A DNA stretch of 20,096 bases from a virus. Positions 1,165 through 8,250 of the stretch are shown one piece after another. The number at the start of each line of letters is the position of its first letter. Positions within the stretch are counted from its first letter, which is position 1. The position numbers and the translations under genes were made by a program. The notes beneath the pieces are model-generated. The model saw nothing but the letters and a program-made list of their open reading frames with translations. It was not told where the DNA came from and made no database searches. The stretch lies in IMG/VR virus record IMGVR_UViG_3300046808_000237, positions 1 to 20,096 of that record. One strand, 5' to 3'.

Positions 1165-1868
1165 CTTGAAAAAATTAAGTTAAACTCATCTGAATGTAAT
1201 CTATAGAATCCAGGCAGACACAGAAAAGGTGCTAACCTTTCATCTACAGATTACTTCAGAATATAAAGTCACCATATGGTAAATAGTATGTAGCCCCACC
1301 CCTTCGTTGGGATTACATGCTGTCATCTATGTGACAATAGGTTTACAGAATATAACGTCCTAGTATGGTCATATTCAACTACAACTATTCACCATTAGCA
1401 TTGCCCCTCTGCACTCAGTTGCAATCCTCTAGTCATATTGCTCTGTCTAGCTGATACTAGAAAATCGATGCAAGTTCACTCGCTGTGGATTACAACTGCT
1501 CACCCTTGGGAACTGACTAGCATGTAGGTTGATGTCTTACCGCATATACTAATCAGGTGGTTTTACATCTTACACTTATATAACCATTTCCACTCAGCTG
1601 TGGGGTTAGATTGTTATGGTGGTAAGAAGTCTTTATATCCACGTGAGTTGTGGTGCATTAGCAAAGCAGTTTATACACTTGCTTTAGGTGTTTTCTCTAG
1701 TACTAAATTTCAGGACCGTTTAACTAGAATAAGCCACGGACAGACAGTGAGTCTGCTTCTGTACAATACCAGTCACGAACTGGATAGCTTAGATTGTTGC
1801 ATAATGTTGGTCATTACCCTATATAAGTAAATTAAAGGAGTTTTTCTTCTGAATAAGAGTATATGTTA
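1165..1868 (-). ncRNA. Candidate large structured noncoding RNA, about 700 nt
   Basis: No convincing gene lies here on either strand, yet the sequence is dense in hairpins. The strongest is a 17-bp helix with one bulge (1189-1206 with 1244-1260) capped by an inner hairpin 1225-1240 with a GCTA loop. Others are 1298-1313, 1321-1336, 1348-1376, 1447-1460, 1470-1483, 1590-1603, 1663-1685, 1697-1727, 1741-1755 and 1769-1783. In three helices (1203/1247, 1299/1312, 1472/1481) one position is G-U on the minus strand but A-C on the plus strand, so the minus strand is the transcribed one. Size and style recall the phage-associated giant RNAs GOLLD and ROOL, but I cannot assign it to either. Exact ends are not visible; it may be processed from the leftward transcript. 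Confidence 0.65.
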
Positions 1869-2526: not shown

Positions 2527-3042
2527 TTAGTTACCCCCTGGTAGACCAGCACTCGCTGATGCTACACTCTCTCTCCATGCTTTCACCTCTTCTACGTTGT
2601 CATGGTCAATCTTGCTATCTGCTTGACTACAAGTTGAATCATAGAACGCATATCTGATAATACGCTCTCCTTGACAAGTCAACTCTGGACCATCCTCACC
2701 AGCACGCTTAACAGAGTTCTCATAGTCTCCTGTCTTGCTGTTGGTAATAGCTTTCGCTACATTAGCAGGGATATCTGACTCAAGATACTCTTGAACGCAG
2801 ATTCTACCTGGTAAAGACAAGTCTCCATCTTTGTCTTTTACCGCAGCGGTAACTACCTTTTTCAACAACGCTACCTCACCCCTAATGAGAGATGAACGCT
2901 TCTTTTCACGCATCCACCCGTTAGAGGTAAACTCAATTGTTGATTGGTACACTTGTACATAGCCATTCTTGCCACCATTGGTAGCAAAGGCAGTAACTGT
3001 TGCTCCCGCAGCAGATACTTGAATTTTTACTGATTCTTGCAT
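2527..3042 (-). CDS. Paralogous family member A, 171 aa (possible nucleic-acid-binding)
   Basis: Start ATG at 3042, ten-odd residues of beta-like sequence (MQESVKIQVSAAGATVTAF), then GYVQVYQST, GWMREKKRSSLI, LPGRICVQEYLESD, GPELTCQGERIIRYAFYDST and IDHDNVEEVKAW. The same blocks occur in order in 3296-3745 and, shortened, in 3793-4128, so the three are tandem paralogs. The alternation of short strands would suit an OB-like fold, and an ssDNA-binding role is conceivable in a crAss-like phage, but this is inference; I cannot name the family. This copy has a longer Gly/Ser/Ala-rich tail (SASAGLPGGN). A CCACCTCC element lies 32 nt upstream and a terminator follows. Confidence 0.75.
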   Translation of the reverse strand: MQESVKIQVSAAGATVTAFATNGGKNGYVQVYQSTIEFTSNGWMREKKRSSLIRGEVALLKKVVTAAVKDKDGDLSLPGRICVQEYLESDIPANVAKAITNSKTGDYENSVKRAGEDGPELTCQGERIIRYAFYDSTCSQADSKIDHDNVEEVKAWRESVASASAGLPGGN

Positions 3043-3074
3043 GATTTAATAGATTATTAATGCTGAATTCAACG

Positions 3075-3082
3075 GGAGGTGG
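3075..3082 (-). promoter_or_regulatory. CCACCTCC leader element of 2527-3042
   Basis: The minus strand reads CCACCTCC, a GC-rich octamer in AT-rich flanks, 32 nt before the ATG at 3042. The same octamer stands at a similar distance before other units of this arm. It directly follows one copy of a duplicated ACAAACCAACTTCC block. Confidence 0.6.
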
Positions 3083-3198
3083 AAGTTGGTTTGTGTATCT
3101 ACCTGTTGGAAGTTGGGTTGTGTAAGCGTCTTGAACAGCGCCCTACACATACTGTAGAAAACAAAGTAAAAAACAGTGTTGAACTGCGCCCTACACAT
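3080..3198. repeat. Two interleaved pairs of direct repeats in a 250-bp intergenic region
   Basis: TGGAAGTTGGTTTGTGTA at 3080-3097 recurs with one change at 3107-3124. TTGAACAGCGCCCTACACAT at 3131-3150 recurs with one change at 3179-3198, 48 bp on. The second pair flanks a TTACTTTG sequence (minus strand), one base off the Bacteroidota -7 box, and an ACTGT/ACAGT inverted pair. The layout suits operators around a promoter for the 171-aa gene; the protein that would bind is unknown. Confidence 0.65.
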
Positions 3199-3244
3199 TT
3201 GATTTAAAAACGTGAAAGAAAGAATTGTTAATGTGATAGAGATT

Positions 3245-3284
3245 AAATGACAGACCCCTATGTGATTATAGAGGTCTGTCATTT
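3245..3284 (-). terminator. Strong hairpin terminator after 3296-3745
   Basis: AAATGACAGACC (3245-3256) pairs perfectly with GGTCTGTCATTT (3273-3284), with further CTAT/ATAG pairing inside and a small loop. The hairpin starts 12 nt after the stop of the 149-aa gene. The terminal T residues form part of the stem and the T-run beyond it is short, so it may act as a terminator or as a 3'-end stabiliser. Confidence 0.65.
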
Positions 3285-3295
3285 TAAAGTTATGG

Positions 3296-3745
3296 TTATT
3301 TACCATTGTTTTTCTTCCATTCATCAATCTCATCCTGGTTGTCATGCTTGACAGTCTTGTCACTAAGCAGACCAGTTGGATCATAGTCAGTGATCCTCAA
3401 GATTAGTTCACCTTGGAAGGTGAATTCAGGACCATCCTTACACAATCTTTTAATAGCAGCCTCATAGTTCTTCTCATTATCCAGATAATCTTGGATCCTC
3501 TGAGGTTTATCCTCTGACTCCAGATACTCACATACTATGAGATTCCCTGGTAGAGGATTCTCTACGAGTTTCTGTAAGAGTTTAACCTTACCCTTCATTA
3601 TATGGGTTTTGGTTATCTCATTTAACCATCCTAAAGAGTAGTCTGTAGCAGACTGTTCTAGGATAACATATCCTACTTCTGGGTTCTTCTTGAAAGCTGT
3701 TACAGCTGGTTTGTCCTTCTGGACGCGTACTTGAATTGTATTCAT
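3296..3745 (-). CDS. Paralogous family member B, 149 aa
   Basis: Opens MNTIQVRVQKDKPAVTAFKK and contains GYVILEQSATD, LGWLNEITKTHIMKG, LPGNLIVCEYLESED, KDGPEFTFQGELILRITDYD and VKHDNQDEIDEW, each with a counterpart in the 171-aa paralog at 2527-3042. It is probably closest to the ancestral form, lacking the extended Gly/Ser tail. The role is unknown; an OB-like nucleic-acid-binding fold is only a possibility. A CCACCTCC element lies 35 nt before the ATG, and a strong hairpin follows the stop, so this gene looks like a monocistronic unit within the leftward array. Confidence 0.75.
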   Translation of the reverse strand: MNTIQVRVQKDKPAVTAFKKNPEVGYVILEQSATDYSLGWLNEITKTHIMKGKVKLLQKLVENPLPGNLIVCEYLESEDKPQRIQDYLDNEKNYEAAIKRLCKDGPEFTFQGELILRITDYDPTGLLSDKTVKHDNQDEIDEWKKNNGK

Positions 3746-3780
3746 GATTGTTTATTTGATTTAATTACTTGATTTTTAAA

Positions 3781-3788
3781 GGAGGTGG
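3781..3788 (-). promoter_or_regulatory. CCACCTCC leader element of 3296-3745
   Basis: Minus-strand CCACCTCC followed by TTTAAAAATCAAGTAATTAA, 35 nt before the ATG at 3745. It lies between the stop of the 111-aa paralog and this start, so each paralog has its own copy. Confidence 0.65.
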
Positions 3789-3792
3789 ATGA

Positions 3793-4128
3793 TTATTTGA
3801 TGATTCGTTGATCTAAGACTGAATCTGTAGGATCATATACATCAATTCTTATGATCTTATGTCCAGAAACTAAGATGGGTTTACCATCTTTCATTACTAC
3901 ATACTTATTCTCAGATATATCACCAAGTAGACACTTGTATAATTCTGGTTGACCAGATAGAAACTCTAGTCTTACGATTCTTCCAGGTATTACAGGATCT
4001 ACATATTTCCACCCTTTTATCACAACTGCCTGTTTAGGTAGTTGTTGAACTTGTGGTAACTTAATTGTTCTTTCAGACTCACCCTTATGGTTCATCTGAT
4101 GTGCTTTGTTTCCTTTTACTATTAGCAT
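3793..4128 (-). CDS. Paralogous family member C, short divergent form, 111 aa
   Basis: The C-terminal two thirds match the two paralogs downstream: IPGRIVRLEFLSGQ corresponds to LPGNLIVCEYLES, and KPILVSGHKIIRIDVYDPTD to the QGELILRITDYDPT block. The N-terminus (MLIVKGNKAHQMNHKGESER) is much shorter and lacks the GYV...Q and GW segments, and the final HDN motif is missing. It is therefore a shortened copy, either degraded or specialised. Function unknown. Its leader has a CCACCTCC element 26 nt before the ATG at 4128. Confidence 0.7.
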   Translation of the reverse strand: MLIVKGNKAHQMNHKGESERTIKLPQVQQLPKQAVVIKGWKYVDPVIPGRIVRLEFLSGQPELYKCLLGDISENKYVVMKDGKPILVSGHKIIRIDVYDPTDSVLDQRIIK

Positions 4129-4945: not shown

Positions 4946-5473
4946 TTATTTAATTGTTGTACTTGATTTAAATGGGTGGTGGTAGCCTGATTGGACCTTG
5001 CTGAGCATTGCTGTGAGAGCATCTCTCTGTCCTTCGCAATATGTCTTATATCCTGGACTATCATCTACAAGTGGTTGAGACAGCAATTTTATGCAAGCTT
5101 CAAGATCTTCTATCAATGCAGTCTTGTCTTCCTGCAGCTCATTTATGAACTCATATGCTTTATGGTAAGCTGACTCATAACCTAACAGTTCATCTACTAG
5201 ACTTCTCTCCTTGTTACGCCATTCCTCTTTAAATACTCTGAGGTCTGTTAGTTCTTCAAGAACCTTACTTGCTTTATAGACCTTATCCCATTTGAAGTAG
5301 CGTCTTTCATGGTCATGGAAGCCACCAATGTGGACTTCAGATACTACTGTGAACAGACAGTTGCTTGTAAGTTCTCTGTCTATCAATACCAAATCACCAG
5401 GCATTGCAGGTTTGCGTGTCTTTACTAATACACCGTTGTTGTAATAGTACCATGGATTGTTTTTCTTTTTCAT
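4946..5473 (-). CDS. Hypothetical protein, 175 aa
   Basis: Starts MKKKNNPWYYYNNGVLVKTR, then MPGDLVLIDRELTSNCLFTVVSE, a beta-type N-terminal domain of about 75 residues, followed by a long helical region (about 75-165) rich in Glu, Leu and Lys. Its last eleven codons (HHPFKSSTTIK) are read through the CCACCACCC leader element of the next gene, so the reading frame appears to have extended into what is intergenic elsewhere. Family not recognised. A CCACCTCC element within a hairpin lies 36 nt before the ATG. Confidence 0.65.
   Translation of the reverse strand: MKKKNNPWYYYNNGVLVKTRKPAMPGDLVLIDRELTSNCLFTVVSEVHIGGFHDHERRYFKWDKVYKASKVLEELTDLRVFKEEWRNKERSLVDELLGYESAYHKAYEFINELQEDKTALIEDLEACIKLLSQPLVDDSPGYKTYCEGQRDALTAMLSKVQSGYHHPFKSSTTIK
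4974..4982 (-). promoter_or_regulatory. Degenerate CCACCACCC leader element of 4529-4936
   Basis: Minus strand CCACCACCC followed by ATTTAAATCAAGTACAAC, 37 nt before the ATG at 4936. It sits where the other units carry CCACCTCC and shares the following TTTAAA-ATCAAGTA sequence, but lies inside the 3' end of the upstream coding frame. Confidence 0.45.
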
Positions 5474-5509
5474 TTTGATTATTTATTTGATTTTTACTTG
5501 AGTTAATTG

Positions 5510-5536
5510 GGAGGTGGAGATTTGTTCCCCACCTCC
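5510..5536 (-). promoter_or_regulatory. CCACCTCC leader element (5510-5517) paired in a hairpin
   Basis: The minus strand has GGAGGTGG (5529-5536), an 11-nt loop and CCACCTCC (5510-5517): a perfect 8-bp GC-rich stem between the 59-aa membrane gene and the 175-aa gene, 36 nt before the ATG at 5473. It carries the recurrent leader octamer and could also work as a terminator for the upstream gene, though no T-run follows on this strand. Confidence 0.6.
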
Positions 5537-5553
5537 ATTTGTTTTACTTTTTC

Positions 5554-5733
5554 TTATTTTCTATCTCTCTTATTCTCTATCTCTAATAGGATGATTAATG
5601 GAATAGCGAATAGTAAACTTATGAGACCTAATGTTACTTGTTTCTCAGTTGTTTCCGCATTCAATGCAGCAAAGAGATTAAGTACGTAGAGTGATCCTAA
5701 GATGAGGATCAATAGTGAATTATCTTTTTTCAT
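5554..5733 (-). CDS. Small two-span membrane protein, 59 aa
   Basis: ATG at 5733 to TAA at 5554. The sequence begins MKKDNSLLILILGSLYVLNL and contains a second hydrophobic stretch LGLISLLFAIPLIILL, separated by the polar NAETTEKQVT; the tail is charged (EIENKRDRK). It overlaps the 3' end of the neighbouring 66-aa membrane gene by 14 nt, so the two are likely co-translated and may act together at the inner membrane. No known holin or exclusion family is recognised. The length and the paired arrangement would suit a small lysis or superinfection factor, but nothing in the sequence proves that. Confidence 0.6.
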   Translation of the reverse strand: MKKDNSLLILILGSLYVLNLFAALNAETTEKQVTLGLISLLFAIPLIILLEIENKRDRK

Positions 5734-5920
5734 CTTTTCTATCTATTAAGTGTGCTACTATTGCTAATGTTGAAACTCCTGCGTATATGCAGAAGAATAA
5801 GAAGAAGAAGTTTCCTCCTCTTGTGTTTCCCCATGAGTATAGGGATTGTGCTGTAAATAGCAATACTAATGCAATGATGACCATCATCGCGATTAGCTTT
5901 TCAATGATTGTAATTTTCAT
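5720..5920 (-). CDS. Small two-span membrane protein, 66 aa
   Basis: Begins MKITIIEKLIAMMVIIALVL with a first hydrophobic span to about residue 25, then the Gly/Asn-containing turn YSWGNTRGGN, a second span FFFLFFCIYAGVSTLAIVAHL and a charged tail DRKDEKR. It starts 12 nt after the stop of the lipoprotein gene and overlaps the 59-aa membrane gene by 14 nt. A plus-strand frame over the same DNA is a shadow. Function unknown. Confidence 0.6.
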   Translation of the reverse strand: MKITIIEKLIAMMVIIALVLLFTAQSLYSWGNTRGGNFFFLFFCIYAGVSTLAIVAHLIDRKDEKR

Positions 5921-5932
5921 TTGATTATTGTT

Positions 5933-6085
5933 TTAGTGTTTGTAACGATTACATTTACCATAACTTCCTTTATGGAAGTCTTGGGTTGATTTCTCTTTAG
6001 CAGCTTTATAGTTAGCAGCTCTTGAGTTTGTTTGACACGCTGAGAATACTGCAGCTGCCAATAAGATTGCAATTAGCTTTCTCAT
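5933..6085 (-). CDS. Tiny lipoprotein, 50 aa
   Basis: ATG at 6085, overlapping the stop of the upstream gene by four bases (ATGA). The N-terminus MRKLIAILLAAAVFSACQTN is a classic lipoprotein signal: basic start, hydrophobic core and a lipobox FSAC with Cys17 as the lipidated residue. Mature part of about 34 residues is basic and polar (NSRAANYKAAKEKS...) with a second cysteine near the end (KCNRYKH). Such entericidin-like or phage exclusion lipoproteins are common, but no specific family can be assigned. Expected at the periplasmic face of the inner or outer membrane. Confidence 0.65.
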   Translation of the reverse strand: MRKLIAILLAAAVFSACQTNSRAANYKAAKEKSTQDFHKGSYGKCNRYKH

Positions 6086-6240
6086 TTCTTTTTGGTTTTA
6101 ATGGTTAATTCAAAGATCTCATCCTCAATCACATCACGTGACTCAGTTATGATTGTGAACTTAAACGTGTATCGTACGTTATCCGTCAATCGAGATGACA
6201 CTCCCATCACCATCAATTGATTGTTATTAGTATTACTCAT
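6082..6240 (-). CDS. Hypothetical protein, 52 aa
   Basis: The start at 6240 (MSNTNNNQLMVMGVSSRL) is preferred over one 24 nt upstream because it leaves a normal leader with the CCACCTCC element 28 nt before it. The product contains VRYTFKFTIITESRDVIEDE and ends FELTIKTKKK, which looks like a small all-beta protein. It is the first gene of a coupled set (this gene, the lipoprotein and two membrane proteins). Family unknown. Confidence 0.55.
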   Translation of the reverse strand: MSNTNNNQLMVMGVSSRLTDNVRYTFKFTIITESRDVIEDEIFELTIKTKKK

Positions 6241-6707
6241 AGAGTATATATAATTACTAAACAAGATTGGAGGTGGAGGTTTGCATCAGATATGATACAC
6301 ATTGTATCACATTAGACTACACCACACACACCCTCCCATGCATTGTGAACATGCAATACATAAACTCTTGTAGACCAAAATCTAGAAGAGTGCAGTAAAT
6401 GCAATCACTACGCTGAATCAATAGGGGGGTGGAGGGTTGTTGCTGAGAGTAGCGGGGCGTTGTAACTAATCGGTCCCCACATTCACACCCTCATACATTT
6501 TTCTCTCCCTGTACCAGGGGGTATAATACCACCTAGTATAAAGGGTGGGGGTATGTGATTTTAAGAGTACCCTAGGGGGATAGGTTATACGCAAGGTTAT
6601 ATGTCCAGTTTTTTACCAAATAAAGTGGACAATGTTGCATGCAAAATTTGGAAAAATTCATGCAGTTTTGGTAACAATTATATATGCAAAAATGTTACAA
6701 GGGCAAC
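6241..6707. other. Gene-free region with short inverted repeats
   Basis: No credible coding frame is found on either strand. The first half holds a leader element (6269-6276), a second G-rich relative near 6425-6433 (minus CCACCCCC), and small hairpins such as GATACA/TGTATC near 6288-6302 and CCCTG/CAGGG near 6507-6520. The second half is AT-rich, with the inverted pair TGTCCA (6602-6607)/TGGACA (6626-6631), three variants of ATGCAAAA/ATGCAGTTTT between 6637 and 6692, and GTAACA/TGTTAC around 6671-6697. It could be an origin or a control region, but nothing decides between them. Confidence 0.45.
6269..6276 (-). promoter_or_regulatory. CCACCTCC leader element of the 6082-6240 unit
   Basis: Minus strand CCTCCACCTCC followed by AATCTTGTTTAGTAATT, 28 nt before the chosen ATG at 6240. 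It heads a four-gene coupled unit; the internal genes of that unit have no copy. Confidence 0.6.
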
Positions 6708-6734
6708 AAAAAACCCCAACGTATAGTTGAGGTT
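6708..6734 (-). terminator. Rho-independent terminator of the 7550-6792 unit
   Basis: Minus strand AACCTCAAC (6726-6734), loop TATAC, GTTGGGGTT (6712-6720): nine pairs including one T-G, followed at once by TTTTTT. It lies 57 nt after the stop of 6792-6995 and should end the transcript from the divergent promoter at about 7557. Confidence 0.85.
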
Positions 6735-6791
6735 CTTGTCCTGCACATTTGCCACGGTGTAACATCCCAGGTAGCGATCGGGAACTCTTAA

Positions 6792-6995
6792 TCAATCTTC
6801 TGTGAAGTTGATAATATCTTTGGTGTCTGAAATCTCTACACCGTAGTGCCACTGTTCAGACATGTTAATAGCAAGTTTGTATAGTATACCGCCTTCTGCT
6901 GTGATTTGAAGACCAGTTACAATACGCATGTATTGATCAGGATCTGTCTTTAGATAGACAGTCTGACCCAATTTGAAATCTGGATGTATTGTCAT
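6792..6995 (-). CDS. Hypothetical protein, 67 aa
   Basis: The start at 6995 (MTIHPDFKLGQTVYLKTD) is preferred: it overlaps the stop of the upstream membrane gene by four bases (ATGA), while an earlier start at 7130 would put 45 residues out of frame across that gene. The protein has the feel of a small beta-barrel (GQTVYLKTDPDQYMRIV, GLQITAEGGILYKLAI) and ends EISDTKDIINFTED. This general layout, with a short FKLGDTVYLK-type opening, is common in small phage proteins of unknown role. It is last in the unit and is followed by a terminator. Confidence 0.65.
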   Translation of the reverse strand: MTIHPDFKLGQTVYLKTDPDQYMRIVTGLQITAEGGILYKLAINMSEQWHYGVEISDTKDIINFTED

Positions 6996-8169: not shown

Positions 8170-8243
8170 AGCGGGGTGGTAGCAGATGGTAGCTCGTCAG
8201 TCTCATAAGCTGAAGGTCAGTGGTTCGAGTCCACTCCCCGCTA
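8170..8243 (+). tRNA. tRNA-Met (anticodon CAT)
   Basis: Acceptor AGCGGGG (8170-8176) pairs with CCCCGCT (8236-8242), discriminator A at 8243. Anticodon stem TCAGT/GCTGA (8197-8201, 8209-8213) with loop CTCATAA places CAT at 8204-8206. T arm AGTGG-TTCGAGT-CCACT (8219-8235). CCA is not encoded. The D arm (about 8179-8195) resembles fMet tRNA in length but its stem pairs poorly unless shifted by one base. Lysidine-modified Ile-tRNA (AUA) is an alternative for a CAT anticodon. Confidence 0.9.
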
Positions 8244-8250
8244 CAAATTA

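Follow-up and report, generated by a model that had tools for sequence, protein, structure and literature searches.

A crAss-like phage record carries on its minus strand (positions 1657 to 1404) what is almost certainly a real, conserved structured RNA element, as judged from paired sequence changes among its relatives. Hypervariable arms project from its pseudoknotted core and are very likely exchanged as modules between phages, and the element appears to be a phage RNA class that had not been catalogued.

RESULTS

Locus and search for relatives

The window, by which we mean the whole 20,096-base virus record that was analyzed, has crAss-like terminase, portal, and capsid genes, and tblastn matches of its terminase were to uncultured crAss-like records and to Flavobacterium, Cellulophaga, and Bacteroides phages (~25% identity). 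An initial annotation had pointed to a gene-free stretch as a structured noncoding RNA, and the gap is indeed there: positions 1162 to 1868 are without genes, lie between minus-strand open reading frames (ORFs) at 982-1161 and 1869-2111, and contain as their sole ORF a 76-amino-acid GTG frame on the plus strand (1600-1830). Elsewhere in the window, a tRNA-Met gene (8170-8244, plus strand) lies near the switch between early and structural genes, and three successive minus-strand genes of unknown function occupy 2527-4128 (2527-3042, 3296-3745, and 3793-4128), the first two being clear paralogs whose duplication is also present in relatives.

Blast comparison of the region with loci fetched for neighboring proteins revealed short, near-identical blocks in L083 and L058; as a direct synteny query, the upstream 80-amino-acid protein led to the L083 contig only. 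One such block, the 17-mer CAACTGAGTGCAGAGGG, occurs in at least 120 IMG/VR stretches, with the same context in nearly all, and other parts of the motif, used as queries, matched 90, 14, and 68 stretches, chance matches among them. The total came to at least 219 fetched IMG/VR loci with 245 3' ends of the element. When GTDB (257 Gb) was scanned with the 17-mer, 10 matches were found, about the chance level, and the element context was seen only in L221, a contig binned into a metagenome-assembled genome. Nucleotide searches of isolated phages (INPHARED) and plasmids (PLSDB) found no similar DNA, and we found no description of the element in the open-access literature. Model R1 matches the window at 1402-1526 (39.3 bits; E, 5.6e-8 in 1 Mb), a structure descriptor gave 89 matches in 2.4 Mb versus zero when the sequence was reversed or shuffled, and presence or absence of the element per genome was scored with models R1 and R2.

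The annotation had likened the region to GOLLD and ROOL. These two phage RNAs are large, assemble into cages made solely of RNA, are frequently encoded close to tRNA islands, and have no established function (PMC12286853). GOLLD has a conserved part plus a variable part, and ROOL, several hundred nucleotides (nt) long and found in phages and prophages, has multiple pseudoknots and no known protein partner (PMC12286853). Searches of Rfam 15 gave no family at E ≤ 1 for the whole window save tRNA at 8173, no meaningful match at E ≤ 10 for the region itself, and no meaningful match in 13 other element-bearing stretches; GOLLD, ROOL, OLE, raiA, and introns, all of which the annotation had proposed to search for, went unmatched. 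OLE and raiA were rejected on this ground, as was a group I or II intron, the element lying between complete ORFs. A tRNA was found within 1, 2, and 3 kb of 3.7, 11.0, and 16.3% of elements versus 6.0, 9.9, and 12.8% of random positions, so that an association with tRNA islands is weak or absent, with no enrichment at 1 to 2 kb. The element resembles GOLLD (RF02032) as a large, ornate phage RNA with a more conserved and a variable part, and ROOL (RF03087) as a pseudoknotted phage RNA with no known protein partner; it differs from both in the missing covariance match and the tRNA context, from GOLLD also in its ~60- to 130-nt junction and pseudoknot core with exchangeable arms, and from ROOL in having scaffolds of two sizes and swapped arms. 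Phage origin, large size, unknown function, and ornate folding would suit a divergent GOLLD, ROOL, or other known large RNA family, yet with the Rfam and tRNA results against it such membership is hardly credible, and the other possibility that the annotation had raised, a new class, is the one favored.

Architecture of the core

The core, ~60 to 130 nt in size, is a three-way junction of P1, P2, and P6 in which a pseudoknot joins the P2 loop (UCCC) to GGGR directly 3' of P1. In form A the order is UAA-P1(UGCAC)-CA-NN-P2(CUCAC)-UUCCCAAGG-P2'(GUGAG)-P6(CAGUUGUAA..)-arm 3-P6'-A-P1'(GUGCA)-GA-GGG-R, with the loop CCC pairing with the GGG past P1'. The window's copy is of the larger form B, which has P3 to P5 inserted within P2: after P2 come P3(GUGG)-AUAUAAAGACU-P4(UCUUA..)-arm 1-P4'-UGUGAAA-P3'-P5(CUGAUUAA)-arm 2-P5' and then the CCCAAGG loop. 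In a third arrangement (L105 and L195), CCC lies 5' of P1 and forms one continuous helix with GUGCAGAGGG; L195 has CUCUC opposite GAGAG. The parts of the window's copy and the evidence for each are as follows.

1404-1657, minus: conserved core, form B, from P1 to the pseudoknot (R1 match; form B row L001; blast peaks)
1653-1657, minus: P1 5' strand UGCAC, partner GUGCA at 1414-1410 (compensatory variants)
1643-1647, minus: P2 5' strand CUCAC, partner GUGAG at 1503-1499 (five of five pairs covary)
1639-1642, minus: P3 5' strand GUGG, partner CCAC at 1560-1557 (GTGG/CCAC, GTAG/CTAC)
1628-1638, minus: internal-loop strand AUAUAAAGACU, opposite UGUAAAA at 1567-1561 (near-invariant in form B alignment A3)
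1568-1627, minus: P4 (1627-1622 with 1573-1568) and variable arm 1 (form B comparison; orthologous site in L083)
1513-1556, minus: P5 (1556-1549 with 1520-1513; one U-G) and variable arm 2 (two-sided changes in A3)
1504-1512, minus: loop UUCCCAAGG, whose UCCC (1511-1508) forms the pseudoknot with GGGG (1407-1404) (compensatory variants)
1416-1498, minus: P6 (1498-1487 with 1427-1416; one U-G) and variable arm 3 (variants that keep pairing; arm families)
1404-1414, minus: P1 3' strand GUGCA, linker GA, and pseudoknot 3' strand GGGG (the 17-mer noted above)
1663-1685, minus: upstream hairpin P0, AAAGCA-AGUGUAUAAAC-UGCUUU (5'-edge hairpin enrichment)
1278-1393, minus: downstream hairpin (1393-1379 with 1293-1278) (in the minimum-energy fold; blast to L138 and L181)
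1189-1260, minus: 17-bp bulged helix with inner hairpin 1240-1225 (confirmed in the sequence)
1700-1862, minus: 5' part of the gap, with hairpins (0 to 3 weak blast matches)

Conservation begins sharply at UAA and stops after GGGR, with blast peaks in the window at 1690-1630, 1570-1550, 1515-1485, and 1425-1405. Directly at the 5' edge there is commonly a hairpin (56% of copies versus 29% in the background), in many cases with a T run after it, and the counterparts of P0 in L103, L136, and L198 differ in stem sequence and still pair, as judged by eye. Adjacent copies in G026 (L390:7490-7800) may interlock, since GTGCAAAGAGA, which is the 3' strand of P1 in one of them, can base pair with TCTCTTTGCAC in the following one.

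Conservation drops off abruptly immediately 5' of UAA, which could also mark the cleavage site of a self-cleaving ribozyme, cutting for example at the edge UAA / UGCAC and freeing units from a long transcript. Such activity is possible and would accord with the pseudoknotted core, the conserved unpaired bases (UAA, CA, AAGG, A, and GA), the tandem copies, and the variable peripheral arms, which known ribozymes have as well; with no match to an Rfam ribozyme family and no catalytic signature recognized, we consider it unlikely.

Covariation and strand

Compensatory changes are found in helices P1 to P6 and in the pseudoknot. The alignments held copies with arms trimmed to their ends; because the sequences of alignment A1 were retrieved with the exact 3' motif, no variation is possible in it at P1, at the base of P6, or in the pseudoknot, and form B rows were retained only with at least four P6 pairs. 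In P2, each of the five pairs varies on both strands across 37 form A sequences, with 100% pairing kept. In the 32 form B sequences, both partners vary in 21 of 42 pairs (versus 11.7 in shuffles), and paired cells amount to 96.7% versus 33 to 41% with slid partners; no shuffle reached the observed values. All eight P5 pairs show both-side changes in A3, and P6 varies in sequence with pairing kept. The variants of P1 are TGTAC/GTACA, TGTAT/ATACA, TGTGT/ACACA, TGCGT/ACGCA, and TGCAT/ATGCA; P3 is paired in 54 of 55 copies (38 GTGG/CCAC, 16 GTAG/CTAC, and one mismatch). Pseudoknot variants are CCC/GGG, CAC/GTG, CCA/TGG (in L182 and, by eye, L349), and CCT/AGG (by eye, in L336 and L346).

Two blind tests, free of alignment circularity because copies were fetched by one side only, had outcomes that were predicted before inspection. 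For P1, the query was the 5' half with P1 altered to TGTNN, and the 3' half was located via GAGGG and P6 pairing, not via P1; it was locatable in 65 of 73 copies, all 65 of which paired at five of five positions, through exact compensatory changes in 57 and through G-U pairs in 8. For the pseudoknot, queried with the changed loop TTCACAAGG, all seven copies with a locatable 3' half show GAGTG, not GAGGG. On the minus-type strand, 37 G-U cells stand against 14 A-C cells. Compensatory changes beyond controls, as expected of a structured RNA, are present, and the covariation in homologs for which the annotation had proposed to look is strong.

Folding of the single sequence

The region folds better on the minus strand (z, −3.6 to −4.1; −4.1 with 60 shuffles) than on the plus strand (z, −1.8). 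Comparison windows from the same record (n = 30; 704 nt) had a mean z of −2.3 (standard deviation, 1.7) and reached −6.8, so the region is unremarkable by stability alone, and it is comparative evidence rather than stability that upholds the proposal of a minus-strand structured RNA in a crAss-like phage. The minus strand of positions 5550 to 6253 has a z of −6.8 against shuffled sequence, exceeding the value of the 1162-1868 region.

Some details of the initial annotation were confirmed: the 17-bp bulged helix is present (1260-1243 with 1207-1189), and at the three positions it cited (1203/1247, 1299/1312, and 1472/1481), A/C on the plus strand is U/G on the minus strand. Its eleven local hairpins exist as hairpins but are largely not the conserved structure, whose core is long range and pseudoknotted; the minimum-energy fold includes P0, P5, the downstream helix, and the outer pairs of the 17-bp helix and contains none of P1, P2, P3, P4, and P6. 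The proposed unit of about 700 nt also needs revision, the conserved part being only ~250 nt (1657-1404). Blast found no convincing homologs of 1700-1862, and 1260-1190 likewise has no convincing homolog (0 to 4 weak blast matches); L138 (81% over 85 nt) and L181 (80% over 102 nt) have an arm 3 related to the interior of the downstream hairpin (1386-1289). The ~700-nt unit is probably a composite in which the conserved core is preceded by a 5' stretch without a found homolog and followed by a hairpin akin to an arm of other copies.

Variable arms

P4, P5, and P6 bear hypervariable arms, which have been replaced from one phage to another where the flanking sequence is almost identical. L135 and L178 are nearly the same in flanking sequence as far as AATGTACCATT and once more from AGTACAGAGGG onward, and P2 and the entire P6 arm differ between them. 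L180 and L254 likewise have the same flanks and different arms, and the P2 halves of L254 (TCTAC and GTGAG) do not match, so this copy looks recombinant, with a chimeric P2. Downstream of an identical 167-nt flank, L163 has form A and L171 has form B; in L139, L200, and L323, the last also with a CAC/GTG pseudoknot, the element occupies one orthologous site and its arms differ greatly in length. In both the window and L083 it is found at the same place, where 94 nt around arm 1 (1642-1550) are 94.7% identical and most else is unrelated. Arm 3 has a median length of 86 nt (range, 16 to 255) and 191 distinct sequences, 121 of them singletons and the rest small families common to different scaffolds. 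Compared with random segments from their own loci, the arms have a slight excess of structure (p, 4e-4), a small advantage over background that is not clearly strand specific (p, 0.08).

Arm 1 of a 345-kb record (L366:2217-2289) resembles, by eye, a degenerate tRNA with remnants of the D-arm and T-arm; T-arm-like hairpins also occur in arms of L108 and L195, and pattern matches numbered 4 versus ~1 expected across all arms. Between two phages ~97 to 99% identical around the site (L267:1093 and L305:1093-1473), there is a clean ~380-nt insertion ~67 nt downstream of the RNA; the idea of a filled and an empty site of the element was dropped, as the insertion is not an element copy.

Cassette-like arms at fixed sites, the interchange of forms A and B, sharp boundaries, and conserved blocks that could supply homology for exchange might also be expected of a DNA-level element, that is, a recombination site or small mobile element with hairpins in single-stranded DNA and arms as cassettes. 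We judge this quite improbable: pairing is kept by compensatory change in helices and the pseudoknot with G-U on one strand, orientation tracks transcription (see below), and no associated recombinase family was found.

Distribution and gene context

Most tested records have one to a few copies by R1 and R2, tandem copies occur, and five relatives (G002, G003, G004, G006, and G008) have no copy by these models. Terminases of RNA-bearing records are 58 to 92% identical to the window's in most tested and 27 to 28% in six; a few records are without a detectable terminase homolog, among them G012, whose capsid protein is 80% identical. A form B copy also occurs in the 345-kb record G030 (L366), which lacks a crAss-like capsid protein. 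The element has the same early-gene surroundings in relatives such as G014, G025, G026, and G005 as in the window. One contig, G034:C1 (135,860 bases), has two capsid genes with nearly equal scores near its opposite ends (5333-6949 and 127508-129124), perhaps an assembly overlap.

The element is intergenic, its downstream ORF is co-oriented in 112 of 118 cases, and the distance to that ORF is commonly 30 to 60 nt, with some copies >100 nt away. A riboswitch- or leader-type link to one downstream gene family did not emerge, the neighbors falling into many small clusters, the largest of 8 proteins. No conserved promoter-like motif was seen, and the terminator-like hairpins that abut the 5' edge leave no room there for an own promoter.

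Since many copies lie close upstream of an ORF, a role in cis is possible, and a cis-acting stability or processing element is the strongest rival to the trans-acting scaffold that we favor below. It would punctuate early operons, the junction blocking exonucleases or guiding processing and the arms mattering little. A broadly similar topology, with a junction closed by a hairpin loop that pairs with a strand 3' of the junction, is a feature of flaviviral xrRNAs; here, however, the hosts of the RNA are DNA phages, the variable arms are long, and Rfam scans show no sequence relation. Consistent with a cis-acting mark, copies are always intergenic and almost always co-oriented, with sharp 5' and 3' limits of conservation, hairpins directly upstream, and freely varying arms. 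It sits poorly with one to a few copies per genome, few for a general mark, with a conserved second domain (P3 to P5) and invariant loops, with arm families that are conserved and shared, and with the copies >100 nt from the next gene. We regard it as a doubtful but serious alternative.

Across seven RNA-bearing and five RNA-lacking genomes, a search for a dedicated protein partner found no family that fits the presence and absence of the element, a result compatible with an RNA that works alone or together with host factors. In four loci (L139:838-2301, L208:1333-2739, and near L176 and L200), a DUF2828 plus DUF7788 protein, which we take to be TROVE/Ro60-like, is encoded directly downstream of the RNA, a likeness to Ro60 and Y RNAs; however, the gene is absent from most element-bearing genomes. 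The DUF2828 gene occurs in 3 of 28 records, one of the three without the element, and the TROVE/Y-RNA idea was rejected. Type III antitoxin RNAs (ToxI) are small pseudoknotted units, sometimes in tandem and phage linked; in contrast, no toxin gene was recognized alongside the element, its arms are much larger, and its copies are separated and diverse.

DISCUSSION

The explanation that we find best overall, and to which we give about even weight, is that of a conserved RNA with exchanged arms that serves as a scaffold in trans. That the RNA is a trans-acting scaffold with arms as exchangeable binding modules is somewhat short of an even prospect. The element would be transcribed together with the co-oriented genes of the early region, and the RNA would work in trans as a rigid scaffold whose constant core may serve folding, stability, or the binding of a common host factor. 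The arms could then turn over fast because their targets, host or rival-phage factors, vary, and swaps may proceed by homologous recombination in the conserved core blocks, as one chimeric copy suggests. Against a scaffold in trans stand the possible role in cis, the small fold advantage of the arms, the lack of a promoter-like motif and of room for a promoter at the 5' edge, and the little antisense potential of the arms: as antisense to neighboring genes they were rejected, the longest complement being 9.96 nt versus 9.78 nt in shuffles.

More tentatively, and with clearly less confidence, the element may represent a new viral RNA class in which a fixed pseudoknotted chassis takes plug-in arms that are swapped by recombination and present changing domains to host targets, such as defense proteins. 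If true, this would be an RNA counterpart of variable receptor-binding or antidefense gene cassettes.

Only a few known phage RNA classes are as large and intricate, GOLLD and ROOL being two of them. The element is abundant in uncultured phages, its core is compact, and its helices are fixed by covariation, while natural arm swaps at otherwise identical sites amount to ready-made mutants. The role of large phage RNAs becomes experimentally approachable with a small core that can be transcribed, clear mutations, and arms as baits, and RNA domains here are shuffled between phages much like protein domains.
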